From positions 75,660 to 139,659 of the forward strand of contig CADBIY010000002.1 of NCBI GenBank assembly GCA_902794895.1: a DNA stretch of 64,000 bases, given 5' to 3'. Below are positions 48,257 to 61,044 of this stretch, one piece after another. The translations under genes and the position numbers were made by a program. The notes beneath the pieces are model-generated. The model saw only the letters and a list, made by a program, of their open reading frames with translations, ran no database searches and was not told where the DNA came from. The stretch is from Candidatus Avelusimicrobium vaccinum (GTDB lineage Bacteria > Elusimicrobiota > Elusimicrobia > Elusimicrobiales > Elusimicrobiaceae). Every line of letters begins with the position of its first letter. Position 1 is the stretch's first letter.

Positions 48257-49873
48257 TTACATTTTGAAAATGTGTTCTTGTTCTCCCCAATCCGAGGCGC
48301 GGATAGAAAGCAATTTTTTGAGCGTACAATCGGCAGGCTGGGTGCCATTTAGGACAGAGCGCACGATTCTGGGTGATAAAAAACTCAAATTGAGGATCCG
48401 GCGCACATATTGCACACATACCTTCTCTCTATTGGCTATTTCTTGGGTAGTCTTACCGTCTAATATATCTTGATGCCAAGCATAGGATTGGTTTAAGATT
48501 TTGATAAGTTCAGCATTAGGTCGTTTCTTCGGCTCTACAAATTGCCCCACGATTATCTTTTCTCCGTTGGCTATTGTACCGATATGGTACGGTTCCGTGT
48601 AAGTATTTTCATTCTTCAATTCTTCGGGTTTGAGTTGGTGCATTTCCCGGTTTTCATAAATGGCATTTAATAGTTCAGTTACTCGTTCTTGATATAACGT
48701 GACTTCTATCTTGTTTGGATTTAATTTCACGCGTTTGATTAGTTCTTTTTCTATATTCCGCGTTATCGGATATGATGGTAGCCGTTTGATAATTTCCTTT
48801 TGTTTGCTTACGCCAAACTGTTGGATATACGGGTATATCTTGCTTTTGTCCTTCAAAAATTCACTGAACCAATTATCTATAAACTGTTCTAAGTTAGGAA
48901 GTGAAACCTTACTGACTTTCCCCACCTTGCCCGGCTCTTTGCGGATAAGTGCTTGGCTGACATAATAGCGATACTTTTTACCACTACTACCTGTACTCCA
49001 ACTGGGGCTCATAGCGTTATCTTTATCGTCATATAGTTTGCCGGATAAAAGGCTCTTTTTAGGATCATAATGTTGGCGGTTGATACGATTATCTGCCATT
49101 ACGGCTTGGACCTGTTCAAATAGTTCAGTTGGGATTATGCCTTGGTGTTCCCCCGGATACCATGTGCCTTTATGCCCTACTAAACCAATATATGCTTTAT
49201 TACGTAGGATACAGTTCAAGTTACCTACGGATATATTATGCCCTTGTTTATTTAACCACTCTTTTAGGAGTGTGGTGCTTTTGAGTTTAATATACTTTTC
49301 AAAAATGGCGAGTAGTAACGGTAGTTTTTCCTCATCCGGGTATATCTTCTTATCCTTACGGTAATACCCTAGTGGCGGTTTGCCACCCATCCACATGCCC
49401 TTCTTTTTACTCGCGCTGATTTTATCTCTTATACGCTCCCCGGTTACTTCCCGCTCAAATTGTGCAAATGAGAGTAGCATATTTAATGTGAGCCGCCCCA
49501 TACTGGTGGTGGTATTAAAGTGTTGCGTGATAGATACAAACGAGGCATTATGCTTATCTAACACTTCTACTATTTTGCTAAAGTCCATTAAACTGCGTGT
49601 TAAGCGGTCTATCTTGTATACTACGATAATATCTATAAGTCCGTTTTGAACATCTGCGAGTAGACGTTTTAAGGCTGGGCGTTCCATGTTACCACCTGAA
49701 TACCCGCCGTCATCATACTCCGTGGGCAATAACTGCCAATACTCATGCTTTTGACTTTTGATGTAGGCCTCACATGCTTCTCGTTGAGCCTGCAGACTAT
49801 TAAACTCTTGTTCTAATCCTTCTTCGGTTGATTTTCTAGTGTAGATGGCACAACGTATTTTCTTATCACTCAT
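48257..49873 (-). CDS. Large serine site-specific recombinase
   Basis: A 538-residue large serine recombinase. The catalytic domain begins IRCAIYTRKSTEEGL with the nucleophile Ser in YTRKS (residue 13), and continues with DDGGYSGGNMERPALKRLL, VYKIDRLTRSLMDF and FAQFEREVTGERIRDKI. A recombinase domain (GYYRKDKKIYPDEEK) and a zinc-ribbon/coiled-coil region follow. Such enzymes integrate and excise phage or integrative elements without tRNA-type repeats. The ATG overlaps the stop of the DUF2924 gene (ATGA), and GGAG precedes it. The C-terminal HTH-like stretch (TTQEIANREKVCVQYVRRIL) resembles the proteobacterial phage-type members. Confidence 0.92.
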   Translation of the reverse strand: MSDKKIRCAIYTRKSTEEGLEQEFNSLQAQREACEAYIKSQKHEYWQLLPTEYDDGGYSGGNMERPALKRLLADVQNGLIDIIVVYKIDRLTRSLMDFSKIVEVLDKHNASFVSITQHFNTTTSMGRLTLNMLLSFAQFEREVTGERIRDKISASKKKGMWMGGKPPLGYYRKDKKIYPDEEKLPLLLAIFEKYIKLKSTTLLKEWLNKQGHNISVGNLNCILRNKAYIGLVGHKGTWYPGEHQGIIPTELFEQVQAVMADNRINRQHYDPKKSLLSGKLYDDKDNAMSPSWSTGSSGKKYRYYVSQALIRKEPGKVGKVSKVSLPNLEQFIDNWFSEFLKDKSKIYPYIQQFGVSKQKEIIKRLPSYPITRNIEKELIKRVKLNPNKIEVTLYQERVTELLNAIYENREMHQLKPEELKNENTYTEPYHIGTIANGEKIIVGQFVEPKKRPNAELIKILNQSYAWHQDILDGKTTQEIANREKVCVQYVRRILNLSFLSPRIVRSVLNGTQPADCTLKKLLSIRASDWGEQEHIFKM

Positions 49874-50253
49874 TTTTTCACTCCAAAGAATACATTTCCG
49901 TTCCAACTCTTACCTGTAATGGCCTTGGCTACACCGGATAAACTTTTATAGGTTTTGTGCCTATACAAATAGCCCTGCGGGGTAATTTCTACTTCGTATT
50001 TGGTACCTTGATAGGAACGGACCATTTTGGAGCCCACTTCCAATGTGGCTTTGGAATGGGAATATGCGTTTTTGGCAGCTTGCTTTACTTCATGAAAAAA
50101 GCCAAGTGGAGAAATCTTCTCACGCTTGGCTTGTTCATACCATAACAGGTATTTAATAACTAAACTTCGCCCAATTGGTGGAATAGGTCGGCCTATTACT
50201 TCTAGCCATTTTAGCTCTAATTCCCGCGCGGTTAAATGTGTATAGTTTTGCAT
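49870..50253 (-). CDS. DUF2924-family protein, recombinase partner
   Basis: A 127-residue basic protein with the DUF2924 C-terminal pattern (MVRSYQGTKYEVEITPQGYL, then YKSLSGVAKAITGKSWNGNVFFG). Genes of this family usually sit immediately upstream of large serine recombinases, exactly as here, so it is probably a recombination accessory or DNA-binding factor. The start at 50253 follows AGGAGAAAAC. The 47-bp gap upstream includes a TTGACT box and a CTTCT...AGAAG dyad, so the pair may have its own promoter. Confidence 0.82.
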   Translation of the reverse strand: MQNYTHLTARELELKWLEVIGRPIPPIGRSLVIKYLLWYEQAKREKISPLGFFHEVKQAAKNAYSHSKATLEVGSKMVRSYQGTKYEVEITPQGYLYRHKTYKSLSGVAKAITGKSWNGNVFFGVKK

Positions 50254-50983: not shown

Positions 50984-51033
50984 AGTATAGAAAACCCCTG
51001 CGACAACCTGTTGTCGCAGGGGTTTTGTATTCT
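50984..51033. promoter_or_regulatory. Dyad site 1 with two divergent promoters
   Basis: GCGACAACCTGTTGTCGC (51000-51017) is a perfect dyad with 8-bp arms. To the right, 10 nt separate it from TATTCT (51028-51033), the -10 of the ankyrin gene. To the left, 10 nt separate it from TATACT (50989-50984, minus strand), the -10 of the 50301 gene. The flanks AAAACCCCT and AGGGGTTTT extend the symmetry to 36 bp. Confidence 0.75.
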
Positions 51034-51856: not shown

Positions 51857-53824
51857 CTACATTGTAAAACCAATTCGCCCTCCCGATCGATTTTGCTTTA
51901 ATTTTTGCTCAGTTTCCAGCATTTCTTTTAGCGCATAAAAATCATGCGCGTGGCCCAATATTTCTGCCTTATTTTTCACAAGGGCAAAGTCTCCGGGCGT
52001 TAGTTTATTTAGGCCAACCACATCTTTTTCGTCAATCATTACATGGAAGAAGAACATAAAGGCACATACCACTTGCTGAGGAGTCAAAAAATCATACTTA
52101 ATTTTAAAACTAAACCGCCGCAAACTGGCCGGGTCTAGCGTGTCCATGAGGTTGGTGGTGCAAATAAACGGATACGGGTGCGATTCCATCCAAGTCAACA
52201 TTTCGTTTACACCGGATATTTCCCATGAGTGAGAAGCCGTGGCACGGTCCCGCAAGAAACTATCGGCCTCATCAAAAATTAAGAGCGATTTATTCTCTTT
52301 GGCCTGCGCAAAGGCCTCGGCGATATTTTGTTCTGTTCCACCAACCCATTTGGACAGCAAATCTGATGCCCTACGGTGTAGCACATCTAAGCCCAATTCT
52401 TGCGCTAAATACCGTGCATAGGCCGATTTGCCCGTACCGCTGGCCCCATATAAGCAAAGTGAAAAATTAAGCCGCCCTAAACGTTTAATCTGCTGAGTAA
52501 GCAAATCTAAATTCATATCCGCATTGATAAGGGCAGTCTCAAATTCGGCAGCCTCTGTATTTTCCTCCGGTTTTTTGTAGCCACCGTTAAGGGCTTGCGT
52601 CATAAAAGACAAGTGCTCTTTTACGGTATTTAAATCTCCTTTAGCCATATGGGCCGCCTGCGCCGCACCGGCAATCATGGAAGGCGGCACTTCGTACTTT
52701 TTGGCAAGTTTTAATGTATCTTCCTTGCCGCACGAAATTTTGTTCTCTGTTAGATATTTATTCCAAATTTTTTGGCGCACCTCCATGGGCGGCTTATTAA
52801 AACACACCGCCAACGTAAAACGACGGATAAAAGCCGGGTCCATGCGGTGGATTTTATTGGTCGTCCAAATGACGGGAACTTCGTTATTTTCCAACAGGTT
52901 ATTTATTTCCATTTTGCTAGTACGGGTTTCTAGGCTGGAAAACATATCTTCGCCTTCGTCAAAGAGGACACACGCGTTTTTAACATTTTTAAGCAAAAAT
53001 TGGTTGCGGTAGAACTGTTGCAAGCGATAGTTTTTCTCGGCTTCCCCTTCATTACAAACACCCACGGGGTATAAGTCCAACTTGGCCGATTGCGCCAGCA
53101 CCTTGGCAAAACTGGTTTTTCCGGTACCGGGCACTCCATATAAGAGGATATTAAATCCCTTAGTGTGTTTGGCACGTTTCATAAGCCGCAATGCTAAATT
53201 TGCAGCCTCTACGTACGAAAAATCCTTTGCCGTAAATTCGTCGTTAGCGTCCAAAGGGGCACCGATAAGTGCTTTATAACGGGCTTCATCATCTTTATGT
53301 ATCGTATTGATAAATTCTCGTGCCCATCCGGTCAACTGGTACCCTGAATTGAAACGTAGATGGGATAAAATTCCTAATTTAATAAGAGGGGCACTTTCTT
53401 TTAAAACACTACACCCCGCCCCACAAGGCAACCCGGCAATGACTTCTAAAACTTCTTCTTTTTCTATCAAATCGTGCGAAAACCAACCTAATGTCCGGCG
53501 CAATAAATCATTATTGAGCACCGCCACTAAAAATTTAAGGATACGCACTTCTTCCGGTTTTAATTGGAATAATTTCTCCAAATAAACAACATTTTCCTCT
53601 TGAAAAGAATGTTTTTGTTTGAGGTATTGAGTACTCATTTTTGCCATGGCACACACAAGGGCTTCTTTTTTGACTTCTTTTACAGCTTTGTGCAAAAAAA
53701 GGCCACCCGGTTTCATGAGATTGATTCTACACAAATTTTCTTTGCATTCACGCCATTGTTCTAATACGGGCAATAATTCGTGCAAATAATAAACAGTTTG
53801 ATATTCTTGATAGGTGCATTTCAT
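51857..53824 (-). CDS. Double AAA+ ATPase with N-terminal winged-helix-like domain
   Basis: A 655-residue protein. Residues 1-180 are helical and end in a winged-helix-like segment (SAPLIKLGILSHLRFNSGYQ). The first AAA+ module has GVPGTGKTS (about residue 230) and VLFDEGEDM; the second has GASGTGKSA (about 470) and LLIFDEADSF. Sensor and arginine-finger segments read TTNKIHRMDPAFIRRF and TTNLMDTLDPASLRRF. The layout resembles a Cdc48-type unfoldase but without the Cdc48 N-domain. Whether it acts on proteins or nucleic acids cannot be read. AAGGAG precedes the ATG. It is preceded by dyad site 2. Confidence 0.85.
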   Translation of the reverse strand: MKCTYQEYQTVYYLHELLPVLEQWRECKENLCRINLMKPGGLFLHKAVKEVKKEALVCAMAKMSTQYLKQKHSFQEENVVYLEKLFQLKPEEVRILKFLVAVLNNDLLRRTLGWFSHDLIEKEEVLEVIAGLPCGAGCSVLKESAPLIKLGILSHLRFNSGYQLTGWAREFINTIHKDDEARYKALIGAPLDANDEFTAKDFSYVEAANLALRLMKRAKHTKGFNILLYGVPGTGKTSFAKVLAQSAKLDLYPVGVCNEGEAEKNYRLQQFYRNQFLLKNVKNACVLFDEGEDMFSSLETRTSKMEINNLLENNEVPVIWTTNKIHRMDPAFIRRFTLAVCFNKPPMEVRQKIWNKYLTENKISCGKEDTLKLAKKYEVPPSMIAGAAQAAHMAKGDLNTVKEHLSFMTQALNGGYKKPEENTEAAEFETALINADMNLDLLTQQIKRLGRLNFSLCLYGASGTGKSAYARYLAQELGLDVLHRRASDLLSKWVGGTEQNIAEAFAQAKENKSLLIFDEADSFLRDRATASHSWEISGVNEMLTWMESHPYPFICTTNLMDTLDPASLRRFSFKIKYDFLTPQQVVCAFMFFFHVMIDEKDVVGLNKLTPGDFALVKNKAEILGHAHDFYALKEMLETEQKLKQNRSGGRIGFTM

Positions 53825-53858: not shown

Positions 53859-53892
53859 AGTGTAGAAAAGGTATGCGACAGCACTATGTCGC
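53859..53892 (-). promoter_or_regulatory. Dyad site 2 with promoter of the AAA+ gene
   Basis: GCGACAGCACTATGTCGC (53875-53892) has GCGACA/TGTCGC arms. On the minus strand 10 nt separate it from TACACT (53864-53859), the presumed -10. The other side has no -10-like hexamer at this spacing. Confidence 0.68.
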
Positions 53893-54752: not shown

Positions 54753-55608
54753 ATTCCCTCGTCAAACAATGTACGGCACCGCCATAAGGCGCTATTTTAC
54801 TACAATCTACCTGCACCAGCGGTTTATTGGTATACTCTTTCATTATACTAATAACTTTGTCATCCTCGGGTAAATCAAACTGGGGCACAAAAACCGCACG
54901 GGAAGTCTCCAAAAAATTTACATAAAGTCCGTTAGCACTTAGCCAATTCTCCTCATCTAACTTGCATAAGAGAGGCACCCTATCCCAATTTTCTCGTTGA
55001 GCATAGCCGCGTAGCAAGGATGTTGCTCTATCGTTAAGCAAAGATCCGGTTGTAAGGCCGCCATATAACTCTACCGTTCCTTCCATCAAAAAACCGCCCA
55101 AAAACTGTATATATCCGTCTATATGACCAATTTTATCGCCTTTTTGCTGCGGTAGCCATACTATTTCCTGCACACCGAGCGCACGCTTTAATTCTTGCTC
55201 CACATGTTCCTTTTGCTCGGGGTTTGATTTACGGAAAATTGTTTGTTTTTCCAAGCAAAATGCCTGTTTTTTGTCAGGGGACAGCACGATATTACCCCCG
55301 TCTATACGCACGTCACATAGTTTAGCATGAGGAAAAGCGCTCCGTACCAGCATACGGATAGCATCCGTAAATTTAGGCGTGTAATTAGCATAGCGCGGAT
55401 CAAAAAATTGCTGATATAACTCTCCGGTTTGCACGTTTTGCACGGGCAGAAAGTCGCGTACCCAAATATCGGGTAGTTCCAATGAACGCACTTCGTGATA
55501 TTCTCTCAACTGCGACACAAAATGCTCATAAAATTTCGTGTGTCCGGGGTATGTCTGCTCCGTGTACCAAGTGGGTTTAGCCACACAAATCACTTCATTT
55601 TTCGTCAT
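54736..55608 (-). CDS. Agmatine/peptidyl-arginine deiminase-like protein
   Basis: A 290-residue cytoplasmic protein of the guanidino-group modifying superfamily. Its sequence carries the family series: LPDIWVRDFLPVQN (residues about 44-57, the Trp-x-Arg-Asp motif), RIDGGNIVLSPD near 102, KIGHIDGYIQFLGG near 158 (His-x-Asp catalytic pair), LYVNFLETSRAVFVPQFDLP near 227, and PYGGAVHCLTREY at the end (catalytic Cys). Secreted peptidyl-arginine deiminases carry a signal peptide, which is absent here. Substrate (arginine, agmatine or a protein) unknown. GGAGG precedes the ATG, which overlaps the upstream gene by 14 nt. Confidence 0.82.
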   Translation of the reverse strand: MTKNEVICVAKPTWYTEQTYPGHTKFYEHFVSQLREYHEVRSLELPDIWVRDFLPVQNVQTGELYQQFFDPRYANYTPKFTDAIRMLVRSAFPHAKLCDVRIDGGNIVLSPDKKQAFCLEKQTIFRKSNPEQKEHVEQELKRALGVQEIVWLPQQKGDKIGHIDGYIQFLGGFLMEGTVELYGGLTTGSLLNDRATSLLRGYAQRENWDRVPLLCKLDEENWLSANGLYVNFLETSRAVFVPQFDLPEDDKVISIMKEYTNKPLVQVDCSKIAPYGGAVHCLTREYDRFI

Positions 55609-56035
55609 GTATCCACCTCCAAAACACTTCTTTTTTATGCTCGGCTGGGATTATGCTGTGATGATTGGGCCAGTAATACTCCATATCAATTACGGCCACC
55701 GCATCTATTACGCTACGCGGCATGAGGTATCCACTCCCCATTACCCGTACCAGTAAATCCAAATCAACAAGCTCTTGCCACGCTTCCTCATGTTTCAAAT
55801 ATAGCGTTGGCACATTGAGATCCTTTTCCAGCTGCGAAATGAACAACGGTTGTGGCTTTAACTGGTATACATAGTAATAACTAAACACCAGTTTGGCTAC
55901 ATTGGACAGGGGCGGCAAAAAACTGTCCAGTTCCGCAAGCGCTTTTTTTACCTCCGGTTGTTCCAGCGCCGCAAGACCGTCTTGTTCCACGCCGTCCAAA
56001 ATAGCGTCGAAATACTTAAACAGACTAAACGTCAT
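55595..56035 (-). CDS. Small protein resembling the winged-helix part of the AAA+ protein
   Basis: A 146-residue protein with no clear family. Residues 60-140 read like a winged-helix unit: FISQLEKDLNVPTLYLKHEE, then WQELVDLDLLVRVMGSGYLM. The arrangement resembles the end of the N-terminal domain in the AAA+ protein at 51857, which suggests a shared module or an adaptor; this is inference. The start at 56035 is preferred because GGAG lies before it in a 27-nt leader. An ATG at 56062 has no Shine-Dalgarno and lies 6 nt after the -10 of dyad site 3, so a leaderless start is possible. It heads the operon. Confidence 0.6.
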   Translation of the reverse strand: MTFSLFKYFDAILDGVEQDGLAALEQPEVKKALAELDSFLPPLSNVAKLVFSYYYVYQLKPQPLFISQLEKDLNVPTLYLKHEEAWQELVDLDLLVRVMGSGYLMPRSVIDAVAVIDMEYYWPNHHSIIPAEHKKEVFWRWIHDEK

Positions 56036-56068
56036 AATGAACTCCATTTCCTTATTTGTCATAGGACT

Positions 56069-56118
56069 AGGATAACAAACTCTTGCGACAACACCTTGTC
56101 GCCCCTATGTGCTATACT
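56069..56118. promoter_or_regulatory. Dyad site 3 with two divergent promoters
   Basis: GCGACAACACCTTGTCGC (56085-56102). To the right 10 nt separate it from TATACT (56113-56118), which also carries a TGC extension, for the WYL regulator operon. To the left 10 nt separate it from TATCCT (56074-56069, minus strand) for the deiminase-like operon. One dyad between two divergent operons is a classic autoregulatory layout. Confidence 0.8.
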
Positions 56119-56135: not shown

Positions 56136-57056
56136 ATGCAAAAAGAAATGCAAAACAAACTAACACGCCTTTTGTATGAATTGAACGCCCTGGATAAGGG
56201 GGCTATCCGCCTAAAAGATATGGCAGAAGAAGTGGGGGTTGCCGTACGCACCCTCCAACGCGACATGAACGAAATTGAGGATGCCAACTTCCCGCTGTGG
56301 AACCCCGAGCCGGGAGTGTATGCGTTTATAGAAGGGTTTTCCTTGGAGCGCATGCAGTTATCCAGCGCGGAGGCGTCTATCTTGGTGGTGATGAGTGATA
56401 TTGCCTCATCCTTGGGTGGCAATTTTGGGCAGTCGTTTGAAGCGCTTAAATTACGTCTGACCGAAGGCACACAAAACAATCCATTTTTTATTAAAATGAC
56501 GCCAGGTGAGCAATACAAGCAAACACCCATTACACGCACGTTGGAAGATTCTATCCGTGCACGCGAGTGGGTGACCGTATGCTACAAAGGCGGCAAACAA
56601 GCATGCTATGCGGTACGGCCTTTGAAACTGTTGTGGAGTGAGGGTTTTTGGTATTTACTTTCGCTGACGGATGATGACAAACTGTTAAAATTCCGCCTGG
56701 AAAAGATTTCCTCCGCCAAAGAAATGGGCAAGTTTTTTAAGTACGACAAAAATATAGACAAAACTCTCAAAGAAAGCACGAACGTATGGTTTGAAAAAGA
56801 ACGCCCTTTGGCGGTGCAGTTGGAAGTATCGGCCGAGTGCGCGCATTTCTTTAAGCAAAAAAACTATTTTCCGCTACAAAAGTTGGAAAAAGAACTCAAA
56901 GACGGGCGCATTGTTATCTCGTGCAAAGCCGCCAAAGAAGAAGAAATTTTGCCCACCATTTTGCATTGGCTACCACATATTAAGGTACTTTCCCCCGCCA
57001 CTTTACACACGCGTGTAAAAGACGTATTAAACGACTATTTAAGGAGCGTAAAATGA
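56136..57056 (+). CDS. WYL-domain transcriptional regulator
   Basis: A 306-residue regulator. The N-terminal helix-turn-helix is at about residues 18-45 (IRLKDMAEEVGVAVRTLQRD). The WYL domain follows from about residue 130 (REWVTVCYKGGKQACYAVRP, LKLLWSEGFWYLLSLTDDDK, FRLEKISSAKEM), with the conserved W-Y-L read as WYLLSL. A C-terminal extension follows. WYL regulators sense single-stranded DNA or nucleotides in known cases and often govern DNA-damage or defence genes. It lies directly beside dyad site 3, so autoregulation is likely. GAGGGAAC is the ribosome-binding site. The next gene overlaps its stop. Confidence 0.88.
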   Translation: MQKEMQNKLTRLLYELNALDKGAIRLKDMAEEVGVAVRTLQRDMNEIEDANFPLWNPEPGVYAFIEGFSLERMQLSSAEASILVVMSDIASSLGGNFGQSFEALKLRLTEGTQNNPFFIKMTPGEQYKQTPITRTLEDSIRAREWVTVCYKGGKQACYAVRPLKLLWSEGFWYLLSLTDDDKLLKFRLEKISSAKEMGKFFKYDKNIDKTLKESTNVWFEKERPLAVQLEVSAECAHFFKQKNYFPLQKLEKELKDGRIVISCKAAKEEEILPTILHWLPHIKVLSPATLHTRVKDVLNDYLRSVK

Positions 57057-58094: not shown

Positions 58095-58292
58095 ATGAAG
58101 AAAATTTACTTAATTTTGGCTTTACTGGTGGCCGCCGGAGTGGGATATGGTGCGGCGCAAATACAAATCAAAATGGAACAAGTTAAAACGATTACCCAAT
58201 ATGCCGGAGCCCCCATTTCCCGCTATGATTTAGGCGATACGGAGTGCTTTGTGGAATCCACCAGCCACAGCATGTTTTGTTTGAGGAAATAA
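58095..58292 (+). CDS. Small single-pass membrane protein
   Basis: A 65-residue protein. Residues 2-22 are a membrane helix or uncleaved signal (KKIYLILALLVAAGVGYGAA), followed by about 40 polar residues with two cysteines (DTECFVESTSHSMFCLRK). The GGAG site is excellent and the gene lies between two nuclease-like genes, 2 nt after the first. Its N-terminus points inward, leaving the polar part outside. It could be a membrane anchor or effector of the cassette. No family recognised. Confidence 0.65.
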   Translation: MKKIYLILALLVAAGVGYGAAQIQIKMEQVKTITQYAGAPISRYDLGDTECFVESTSHSMFCLRK

Positions 58293-58344
58293 GGTATTGA
58301 CGCACATAATTAAAAGGCCAGAAAGAAGAAAGGGAGACAATGAA

Positions 58345-59580
58345 ATGAACAAAGCTATTATTCTAACAAGAATGTATGCAGGTGAATATCTTAAAAATAA
58401 TATTGGTCATGAAATTATTAACCTATTTAGAGACGATAAAGGGAAAAATTACATTTATATAAATGAAGACGGGAAAATTACGCCCCAATTTAACGACAAT
58501 GTGCATGCGATTTTTCTTGTTAGTTGGGTTGAAAAGGGCGTAATGGAAATCCTCGCCAAAGCAGAAGATTTAGAACAAGTCTTATATAAAACTAACAATA
58601 TTGACGAGGAAAGTAGTCGACAAATTAAATTTATAGAAAGCCATGATATTAAATACGGTGGTGTTCTTTTGCACAAGGTATATGGAGAAAAAAAGGCTGA
58701 AAAAATATGTATCACATTCAAAACCAATAAATTAAGAAAAGTCAAAGAACCCTTATACTTAATACAAGATAAAACAAAATTAGACATGTATAAAAAACAA
58801 AAATATATTTTCTTGCCCGAGCCCCATTTTTCATCCCAAAGTTTGAAAATTTATTATTCGGAAAAAGAGCTACCGAAAGATTATAAAATTTTAAAAGAAA
58901 CTTTAGAAAACAATACATTATGGCAAGGCAACAATACTACAAAACAGTTAGATATAAATAATGGAAATTTAATGCGACAATCTCATAACTTCCTTTCAAT
59001 AATAAAAAAAGAAGATGACGAACTTGTTTTTTCCAATATAATGGCATATCTTTTTGAACAAAATAAAATTCTATTTATGGAATTTGCAAAAAAAGTTCTC
59101 AATATTAAATTCAGCAATAAATTTACTGTATATAGAGAAAAAGACAACATTGACTTATGGATAGAAGATGATAGCTCCATTATAATTATTGAAAATAAAA
59201 TTAAGTCAAAAATTAACGGAGCGAAATACGATATTTATAATAAAAAAAATCAAAGTCAACTAAGCAAATATTATAAAAATGCACAAAAAGAAGCCAATGA
59301 AAATGGCAAGAAATTGCATTGTTTTATCTTTTCGCCTAATTATAATCTCATTAATTTAGAAGATTACGAATCTGGAAAGCATTATTCCCTTATCAAATAT
59401 AGCCAAATACATAATTTTTATTTTAGTAATGCTGGCAGAATGTTGCATACCAATTATGCACGTGAATTTATAGAGGCTTTAGAATTACATTCAAAAACTT
59501 CAGCAGAGTACAATTTTGAAATTATGAGAAATAGATTAATTTCAAAAATTAGAGGGATATTAGATAATTCTCATTTATAA
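58345..59580 (+). CDS. Second PD-(D/E)XK nuclease-like protein
   Basis: A 411-residue, very AT-rich protein. The C-terminal part has the nuclease core: Asp in NIDLWIEDDSS, E-x-K in IIIIENKIKSKING and NQSQLSKYYKNAQ (near residues 275-320), matching the PDDEXK_4 pattern of the 57053 gene. The N-terminal 250 residues are of unknown function (GHEIINLFRDDKGKNYIYIN, IFLVSWVEKGVMEILA). The start at 58345 follows AGGGAG with 8 nt spacing; a TTG at 58297 would add 16 basic residues. It ends the WYL operon at a strong terminator. Confidence 0.72.
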   Translation: MNKAIILTRMYAGEYLKNNIGHEIINLFRDDKGKNYIYINEDGKITPQFNDNVHAIFLVSWVEKGVMEILAKAEDLEQVLYKTNNIDEESSRQIKFIESHDIKYGGVLLHKVYGEKKAEKICITFKTNKLRKVKEPLYLIQDKTKLDMYKKQKYIFLPEPHFSSQSLKIYYSEKELPKDYKILKETLENNTLWQGNNTTKQLDINNGNLMRQSHNFLSIIKKEDDELVFSNIMAYLFEQNKILFMEFAKKVLNIKFSNKFTVYREKDNIDLWIEDDSSIIIIENKIKSKINGAKYDIYNKKNQSQLSKYYKNAQKEANENGKKLHCFIFSPNYNLINLEDYESGKHYSLIKYSQIHNFYFSNAGRMLHTNYAREFIEALELHSKTSAEYNFEIMRNRLISKIRGILDNSHL

Positions 59581-59588
59581 TTTTGCAA

Positions 59589-59615
59589 CTCCCCCGGTAA
59601 TGCCGGGGGATTTTT
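59589..59615. terminator. Terminator between the nuclease operon and the micropeptides
   Basis: CTCCCCCGG pairs with CCGGGGGA around TAATG, then ATTTTT. It serves both converging units. Confidence 0.85.
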
Positions 59616-59625
59616 AAATTCTTTT

Positions 59626-59703
59626 CTAAAAATCTATTTGGGCTATAGCCATTAGAAAAATAAACATGGCCACACCTAATACAATAACACCTAAAACGCT
59701 CAT
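59626..59703 (-). CDS. Tiny membrane peptide C (25 aa)
   Basis: Minus-strand reading frame of 25 codons, MSVLGVIVLGVAMFIFLMAI then AQIDF and TAG. It is a single membrane helix with a short polar end. A near-perfect ribosome-binding site AAGGAG lies 5 nt before the ATG, the strongest reason to accept so short a gene. It is the last of three tandem micropeptides leading from dyad site 4. Confidence 0.6.
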   Translation of the reverse strand: MSVLGVIVLGVAMFIFLMAIAQIDF

Positions 59704-59731
59704 AACTACTCCTTTCCGTATATTCCTAGCG

Positions 59732-59797
59732 TTACCGGGTGGCTGAGTCCAACCAAAACCCAATAATGCCCACAATAATCATTAGCAAAATTTCCAT
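59732..59797 (-). CDS. Tiny membrane peptide B (21 aa)
   Basis: Minus-strand reading frame of 21 codons, beginning MEILLMIIVGIIGFWLDSAT. It is a single membrane helix followed by a short charged tail. AGGGGGAG lies 3 nt before the ATG, a tight but usable spacing. The opening MEI...IVGII resembles peptide A, which suggests duplication. Confidence 0.55.
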   Translation of the reverse strand: MEILLMIIVGIIGFWLDSATR

Positions 59798-59815
59798 ATA
59801 CTCCCCCTCACACAA

Positions 59816-59902
59816 TTATTCTATACGGCTTAACTTGTCAATTATAAATCCCAAAATAAATCCAAATACAAGGACTACAAGCACTATGCCTACAATTTCC
59901 AT
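59816..59902 (-). CDS. Tiny membrane peptide A (28 aa)
   Basis: Minus-strand reading frame of 28 codons, beginning MEIVGIVLVVLVFGFILGFI and ending in a basic-acidic tail (DKLSRIE). It is one membrane helix with the positive charges after it. AGGAGAAAAT precedes the ATG. It is the first gene after dyad site 4, about 28 nt downstream of its TATCCT -10. Single-helix peptides of this size occur as type I toxins or as small regulators of membrane complexes. Neither is shown here. Confidence 0.6.
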   Translation of the reverse strand: MEIVGIVLVVLVFGFILGFIIDKLSRIE

Positions 59903-59929
59903 ATTTTCTCCTAAATACTTCTTGTATTT

Positions 59930-59963
59930 AGGATAACAAAAGCGGGCGACAACATATTGTCAC
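59930..59963 (-). promoter_or_regulatory. Dyad site 4 with promoter of the micropeptides
   Basis: GCGACAACATATTGTCAC (59946-59963), one base off perfect symmetry. On the minus strand 10 nt separate it from TATCCT (59935-59930). The GCGGGcgaca...tgtcACCCGT flanks extend the symmetry slightly. Confidence 0.72.
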
Positions 59964-59991: not shown

Positions 59992-61044
59992 TTACTGTTT
60001 CTTAGTCTTAAGGTCTAATACTTGCCCTTTGATATACTCGTAGGCTTTGGGATTCTTGGGGTCGGTTTTTTGGGCCTGGGCCACCACCTCTAACGCCTTA
60101 TCAAATTGCCCCTCATACGCATACATCAAAGCCGCAAAATGGGTTTGCATGGCCTTGTTGTTAATACCCGCGTTAAATAGCCGGATTGCGCTTTCATGCT
60201 GCTTATTTAATATGGCAAAATAAATGCAGTACGTAAGAAGCGTAGAATCCAGTTTATCTTGTTCAAACCCATCCAAGGCATATTTCAAAGCACCTTTATA
60301 ATCTTTTTGGGTATAGCAAATTAGGGCCGCTTGTTTATAAGGCCATACATCTTTTGGGTCATCCTTAATAAGTTTGGCACACTCTTTTAAGGCCTCGCGG
60401 TGTTGTTGCCCCAACCAATGGAAACGAATCATAATTTTTTGAAGTTCACGCTCTTGCCACTTGCGATAGGCACTATTCCTAAAACCTTTATCATCAGCAA
60501 CCTTATTAAATTCTGCAAGTGTCAGTAAAATTTGCAAAGGGGCACGATTTAAACTCCCGTCATCTAAAAAGATAGATAAGACGTTTTCCTTGCTAGCATT
60601 CATCGGCTCCCACTTCCCCGCGGCTTCTTTACGTTTTTTCTGCTCCTTGCGCCCAGCCTTTTCAACCTCTTTTTGAATAGGCAGCACCCATTTACTGGGT
60701 TTGCCTAGTCCTTCGGTAAGCGCATCTAGTGCATCCACAAAATCCAGCGCATTTTCTTTAGTGATGTTAAATTTAGCCCACTCAAAATCATCCCGCACAC
60801 GGTAATTTACATTTTGCGGATTGGGCTTATACAGCGTTAGCCCAGCCTGCTCTAGGGTTTCTATATCGCGCTGAATGGTGCGGCGGCTTACGCCACATTC
60901 CTTAGCGGCGTGATCCAAATTTAGCACACCCTGATTTAAGTCAATCATCAGTTTAATCAGGCGCGAGAGCCCCTTTTTCACGTCCTCATTTTTCTGCTTT
61001 GTTGCCTTTTTAGGCAATTTAGAAAAGTCTTTCTTTGTTTTCAT
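59992..61044 (-). CDS. HTH regulator fused to TPR-like repeats
   Basis: A 350-residue protein. A basic N-terminal tail is followed by a helix-turn-helix of the DeoR/HTH_11 type (VLNLDHAAKECGVSRRTIQR, about residues 40-59), a wing (GLTLYKPNPQNVNYRV) and then helical TPR-like repeats from about 200 (LKECAKLIKDDPKDVWPYKQ, YKGALKYALDGFEQDKLD, AKALEVVAQAQ-type units). There is no WYL domain, although its HTH resembles that of the WYL regulator. AAGGAG precedes the ATG. It lies downstream of the DUF2779 nuclease gene in the same direction, 12 nt after its stop. Confidence 0.75.
   Translation of the reverse strand: MKTKKDFSKLPKKATKQKNEDVKKGLSRLIKLMIDLNQGVLNLDHAAKECGVSRRTIQRDIETLEQAGLTLYKPNPQNVNYRVRDDFEWAKFNITKENALDFVDALDALTEGLGKPSKWVLPIQKEVEKAGRKEQKKRKEAAGKWEPMNASKENVLSIFLDDGSLNRAPLQILLTLAEFNKVADDKGFRNSAYRKWQERELQKIMIRFHWLGQQHREALKECAKLIKDDPKDVWPYKQAALICYTQKDYKGALKYALDGFEQDKLDSTLLTYCIYFAILNKQHESAIRLFNAGINNKAMQTHFAALMYAYEGQFDKALEVVAQAQKTDPKNPKAYEYIKGQVLDLKTKKQ

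Follow-up and report, generated by a model that had tools for sequence, protein, structure and literature searches.

Background

The activator DriD, which contains a WYL domain, recognizes the site ATACGAC-N7-GTCGTAT, located over the −35 region and at the same distance from the −10 box at all its promoters; the site also occurs upstream of driD, and the regulator is switched by single-stranded DNA (ssDNA) (PMC12340889). PafBC likewise uses ssDNA, and a −26 motif (PMC11804915). Repressors are also found among WYL proteins, as in the case of BrxR and CapW, which are located at defence islands (PMC9122601) and count against assigning an activating sign to a new member. The gene didA is controlled by DriD, and its product DidA (71 aa), like SidA (29 aa), is an inner-membrane inhibitor of division made upon DNA damage (PMC4211646).

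The window considered here is the whole stretch of DNA that was analysed, with a length of 64 kb, and belongs to the 1.45-Mb genome of a gut-type bacterium (Elusimicrobiaceae). Annotation usually overlooks proteins of fewer than 30 residues and, to our knowledge, evolutionary proof for them is scarce outside model bacteria. For the three peptides described below, both this proof and the switch that would control them could be read from the sequence.

Three small membrane peptides

A previous sequence-only reading had indicated three short frames on the minus strand between 59902 and 59626, and they were found at exactly those positions, downstream of a gene encoding an HTH-TPR protein.

59816..59902, minus strand, P1: 28 aa, MEIVGIVLVVLVFGFILGFIIDKLSRIE; open reading frame with a Shine-Dalgarno (SD) site and an orthologue in G069
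59732..59797, minus strand, P2: 21 aa, MEILLMIIVGIIGFWLDSATR; present in five species, 24 aa long in three of them
59626..59703, minus strand, P3: 25 aa, MSVLGVIVLGVAMFIFLMAIAQIDF; present in the same five species, with an invariant AQIDF tail

P1 and P2 are separated by 18 nt, and P2 and P3 by 28 nt. The SD site and the hydrophobic helix that the same reading attributed to each frame were also present. SD-like sites precede every ATG (TTTAGGAGAAAAT in P1, GAGGGGGAGTAT in P2 and GGAAAGGAGTAGTT in P3), and the uncharged cores comprise 19, 14 and 21 residues, respectively, in peptides with a net charge of −1. The C-terminal ends are KLSRIE in P1, R in P2 and AQIDF in P3, the last in all five species; 15 of the 25 columns of P3 are invariant, including this whole C-terminus. 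When both strands of the window were mechanically scanned for frames of 18–40 aa that start with ATG, follow an SD-like site and reach a mean hydropathy of at least 1.6 over 15 residues, P1, P2 and P3 were the only ones obtained. From these features the three peptides are predicted to span the inner membrane.

Searching Pfam with the peptides gave no significant match, and the search of a P3 profile against the PDB yielded only the photosystem II X protein, at chance level (E 0.4). The peptides show no recognisable sequence kinship to any known family, which counts against the effector role proposed below. The alike tails of P1 and P2 (I.GF..D...R) were considered as a sign of paralogy, a suggestive but weak one (shuffling p 0.012) that was not retained.

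Four of 66 genomes of the genus carry P3 (G000, G069, G015 and G070), exactly those with a close orthologue (84–93%) of the HTH-TPR protein. DNA matches at query positions 338–374 in other members of the genus were discarded, as they are merely similar terminators. A profile search of 341 genomes of the phylum added G118, from another genus of the same family, the remainder being at chance level. P2 and P3 are together present in 5/341 genomes of the phylum, distributed in two genera, and these are the same five that have the upstream HTH-TPR gene. P1 was found only in G000 and G069; in G015, G070 and G118, from which it is absent, P2 holds the first place. The HTH-TPR protein of G118 is 92% identical to that of this locus in spite of the different genus, which points to transfer between genera. 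Records of the relatives bearing the locus carry the names uncultured Elusimicrobium, Elusimicrobiales or Elusimicrobiaceae bacterium; among the four, two derive from the isolates RUG130 and RUG540, while roe deer rumen is given as the source in the name of one.

Conservation of the frames in relatives and the balance of synonymous and non-synonymous changes had been proposed as checks in the sequence-only reading, and the frames passed both. Comparison of G000 with G015 gave dN 0.16 and dS 1.33 (Fisher p 2e-7), with G070 dN 0.22 and dS 1.09 (p 5e-5), and with G069, using all three frames, dN 0.036 and dS 0.20 (p 0.0015). The resulting dN/dS of about 0.12–0.3 indicates purifying selection on codons, and in a six-frame comparison the true frame had the most synonymous codon changes in every species pair. 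P1 taken separately showed four synonymous changes and one non-synonymous between G000 and G069 (L050), the sole species pair available for it, and P2 alone one and three in this pair, which is uninformative. In G070 a 157-aa gene (L051:5557-6030, minus strand) lies between P2 and P3, both of which are intact. Judged on amino-acid conservation, purifying selection and a gene order shared by five species, P1–P3 are almost certainly real small proteins.

Promoter and operon

The dyad site upstream of the peptides (site 4) that had been described in the sequence-only reading does exist, as sites of the GCGACA-N6-TGTCGC type were located at four positions of the window and a fifth lies 766 bases past its end.

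59946..59963, minus strand, dyad site 4, WYL-type: GTGACA-ATATGT-TGTCGC, kept in all five species
59930..59935, minus strand, −10 box TATCCT, exactly 10 nt after dyad site 4
56085..56102, dyad site 3, flanked by the WYL gene and the divergent 55595-56062: N10-TATACT in one direction and N10-TATCCT in the other
53875..53892, minus strand, dyad site 2, before the AAA ATPase gene 51857-53824: N10-TACACT
51000..51017, dyad site 1, divergent: N10-TATTCT and N10-TATACT

The peptide promoter reads TTGTCGC-CCGCTTTTGT-TATCCT and, with the −10 box numbered −12 to −7, its right half-site TTGTCGC occupies about −29 to −23. From this layout, transcription would start near 59923. The general form, GYGACA-N6-TGTCGC followed after 10 nt by the −10 box, is kept in the five species, with TATCCT, TATCTT, TATCCT, TATCCT and TATGCT as −10 boxes. 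When the genome itself was searched allowing at most two mismatches over the 14 fixed bases and without asking for the −10 box, five good dyad sites appeared within 14 kb of the island and two weak ones elsewhere. A TANNNT box at exactly N10 was found in 7/7 dyad directions facing a gene and in none of the three facing a gene end. Genus-wide, dyad-N10-TANNNT gave 131 matches, versus nine with a reversed-pattern control. The base profile of 40 further regions, which were chosen by the dyad pattern itself and are hence not independent, displays a T-A-T-A/C-C-T box and no TTGACA-like −35. Because of this missing hexamer, the dyad promoters look activator-dependent. As read from these patterns, the peptides very probably have a promoter of their own at site 4 under WYL control.

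At the same time, the peptides close an accessory operon in which the following genes precede them:

59992..61044, minus strand, HTH-TPR protein, 350 aa; directly upstream of the peptides and strict companion of P2 and P3
61057..62523, minus strand, DUF2779 protein with a Cas4/RecB-like segment; same operon as the HTH-TPR gene

The distant homologues of the HTH-TPR protein that were checked (30–35%) have no peptides behind them, and none of the phage records encodes this protein.

Two hairpins flank the peptide genes:

59590..59610, plus strand, hairpin behind P3, with its T-run on the plus strand
59909..59933, minus strand, palindrome TCCTAAATAC-aagaa-GTATTTAGGA, overlapping the SD site of P1

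It had been suggested that the peptides lie between a regulated promoter and a terminator. The promoter side of this suggestion holds with site 4; the terminator side does not, since the T-run of hairpin 59590-59610 makes it look like a terminator serving the converging gene. For the peptides it is a weak terminator at most, and no minus-strand terminator was called behind P3. With the T-run on the plus strand only, transcription of the peptides may continue into the PDDEXK gene 58297-59580, antisense to it.

The palindrome, between the dyad and P1, has a folding energy of −11.6 kcal/mol (z −4.3). G069 and G015 keep its stem with the help of G-U pairs, and in G118 and G070 it is rebuilt or lost. 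A start near 59923 would fall within the loop, leaving the SD site of P1 free in the RNA from site 4, while a read-through RNA from the HTH-TPR gene would fold the palindrome and hide it. The palindrome may thus hide the SD site in read-through RNA alone, and since the stem is rebuilt or lost in two species this is a side idea. As an operator it was rejected, having a single copy in the window and variable loop length and arms, besides its loss in G118/G070; all five species, by contrast, retain the GCGACA dyad.

Candidate regulator

The protein proposed to act on site 4 is encoded as follows:

56136..57056, plus strand, HTH-WYL-WCX regulator, candidate activator of site 4

Pfam WYL and WCX were above their cut-offs and HTH_11 below its own. 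The dyad pattern was present in all 18 genomes with a close orthologue of this WYL protein (mean of 5.3 matches), and genomes without a WYL match had a mean of 0.35 patterns (p 7e-10). A single-sequence search with the regulator found no relation to DriD or PafC. A profile built from seven orthologues and compared with all solved structures retrieved only DriD (E 3e-4) and PafC (E 0.012), both over nearly the full length, and these modest E-values are to be read as weak but specific. Domain set, promoter layout and profile kinship all agree with a DriD/PafBC-type regulon.

The co-occurrence of gene and dyad, the presence of the regulator's own site 3 and the likeness to DriD suggest that the 56136-57056 protein binds site 4, and by analogy with its relatives it would activate rather than repress. 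The HTH-TPR protein, with an HTH of the same type, could be a second candidate regulator. Following the same analogy, a damage or ssDNA signal for the site-4 promoter is slightly favoured.

The surrounding island

Besides the peptides, the dyad-driven genes of the window are that of the WYL regulator, with PDDEXK-type genes behind it, and those of an AAA ATPase and an ankyrin-type protein, together with a deiminase-like operon. The stretch from P3 to the WYL gene holds different nuclease-like genes in each relative. The whole has the appearance of an island for defence or nucleic-acid stress whose cargo is exchangeable. An effector role of the peptides gains support, though not proof, from this context. 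Elsewhere, many members of the regulon are large cytoplasmic proteins, so co-regulation alone is no pointer to toxicity.

Several neighbouring genes deserve mention on their own. The AAA ATPase (655 aa, 51857-53824, minus strand), behind dyad 2, has IetA/IteA-like similarity, and among the targets of the dyad in the genus its homologues (about 660 aa) are the most frequent. A serine recombinase-like gene (48257-49906, minus strand), near the island edge, is possibly the mover of the element. The frame 58095-58292 (plus strand) encodes a signal- or anchor-bearing protein of 65 aa and is beside the WYL gene also in G015 and G070. Directly behind dyad site 5, 0.7 kb beyond the window, there is a 37-aa zinc-ribbon frame (L128:3261-3374, minus strand; MAEQKYECSKCRQMFTF...); nine or more loci have a relative of it in this same position after the dyad. 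Elsewhere in the genus (L140:2293, minus; L141:1845, plus; L143:2044, plus) the dyad precedes a membrane protein of 58–59 aa (MEYILTLLVAVLIGL...), unrelated to P1–P3 and with its frame broken in G005.

Possible role of the peptides

The best explanation of the whole, which we hold tentatively and place somewhat below an even chance, is that P1–P3 are small membrane effectors triggered by a WYL protein, of the DidA/SidA or TisB kind. Following the example of DriD in Caulobacter and PafBC in mycobacteria, a homodimeric WYL protein, most likely that of 56136-57056, would sit on the dyad across the −35 region and bring in RNA polymerase; its trigger is probably ssDNA arising when DNA is damaged or a phage attacks. 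Once made, the peptides would enter the membrane and arrest growth, most likely either by restraining a membrane machine, for example the divisome, like DidA and SidA, or by lowering membrane energy, like TisB. By comparison with those proteins, a growth-arresting or division-blocking effect is plausible, with a slightly smaller chance. The more specific proposal of a new tandem micropeptide family (P2/P3, with occasional P1), acting in Elusimicrobiaceae as effectors of a WYL-activated, ssDNA-triggered regulon for defence or damage together with the DUF2779 and HTH-TPR proteins, is doubtful.

A non-toxic role is the alternative that survives best, and we consider it rather improbable. The peptides would be small regulatory subunits tuning a larger membrane protein, in the manner of KdpF, CydX, AcrZ or MgtS, for example in shielding the envelope under stress. 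Their size and single-helix form fit this role, their tails are acidic or neutral, and the 15 invariant columns among the 25 of P3, AQIDF included, resemble a binding face. However, the conserved neighbourhood contains neither a multi-span membrane protein nor a partner membrane complex of the KdpF/CydX kind beside the peptide genes, and the accessory distribution (5/341 genomes) argues against a housekeeping partner.

The sequence-only reading had also proposed type I-like toxins, an idea that lost ground. It would imply type I toxin-antitoxin or membrane-permeabilising toxins, checked by an antisense RNA or a masked ribosome-binding site, as tiny hydrophobic proteins in tandem and an SD site of P1 that can be hidden in a hairpin might suggest. 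Nevertheless, the hairpin stem is not kept in all five species, a consensus scan of the peptide region, of a type that can miss promoters, gave no sigma-70-like promoter on the opposite strand, and no Rfam antitoxin family exceeded its gathering score there. TisB, ZorO, AapA1 and SprG1 require positive C-terminal residues (PMC11449926); P3, ending in AQIDF and with a net charge of −1, is the only one of the three peptides without a positive residue at that end. Toxins of this class are quite unlikely. Apart from such a pair, the peptides may permeabilise the membrane or regulate another protein.

Marginally less credible is that the WYL protein is a repressor like BrxR or CapW, titrated by a phage so that the same peptides are freed as defence effectors. 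The defence-like neighbourhood (Cas4-like, PDDEXK and IetA-like genes) is in accordance with this, as known WYL repressors are located at such islands (PMC9122601). On the other hand, the dyad promoters have no −35 hexamer, the fixed spacing from dyad to −10 box is the signature of the DriD activator, and the nearest solved relatives are activators. Finally, that P1–P3 are not proteins, and chance frames opened in a conserved structured RNA or promoter remnant, is very improbable and largely refuted: the region folds better than its shuffles (z −2.8), but the true frame displays codon-wise purifying selection and P2 and P3 stayed intact despite the gene inserted in G070.

Returning to WYL-triggered membrane effectors, if this explanation is true, the WYL damage-sensing logic of Caulobacter and mycobacteria also governs an accessory island of a distant phylum, once more with small membrane proteins at its end. 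The dyad-N10-TANNNT rule moreover yields a ready list of candidate genes of the same regulon.

Comparison with known systems

Each part of this locus is of a known kind; what is new to us is how the parts are combined, the arrangement in tandem and the phylum, and no paper on the combination was found. BrxR and CapW share with it the WYL regulator, the defence-like island and the inverted-repeat sites, but they are repressors with longer repeats, and the layout here is of the activator type. TisB and the type I toxins resemble the peptides in their 20–30 aa approximately, single hydrophobic helix and stress-linked expression, which for the peptides is putative; here no antisense RNA was found by the promoter and Rfam scans, P3 has no positive charge at its C-terminus and the genes form a tandem trio. 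SidA of Caulobacter, a 29-aa inner-membrane protein made on DNA damage, is comparable in size and in the presumed location and induction, although it is controlled by LexA.

In mycobacteria, PafBC is a WYL/WCX activator whose RecA-NDp promoters have, as here, a −26 half-site followed by a −10 box and no proper −35, but it is a heterodimer with a non-palindromic motif and DNA-repair targets. In the DriD system, which is linked to DNA damage, DidA has 71 aa and the spacer is N7, whereas this locus has CGAC-N8-GTCG and three tandem peptides of 21–28 aa on an accessory island, with a damage signal that is presumed. Both have a WYL protein as activator, putative in our case, a near-palindromic CGAC..GTCG over the −35 region at a fixed distance from the −10 box, a site before the regulator's own gene and, as one target, a small membrane protein with a single helix.
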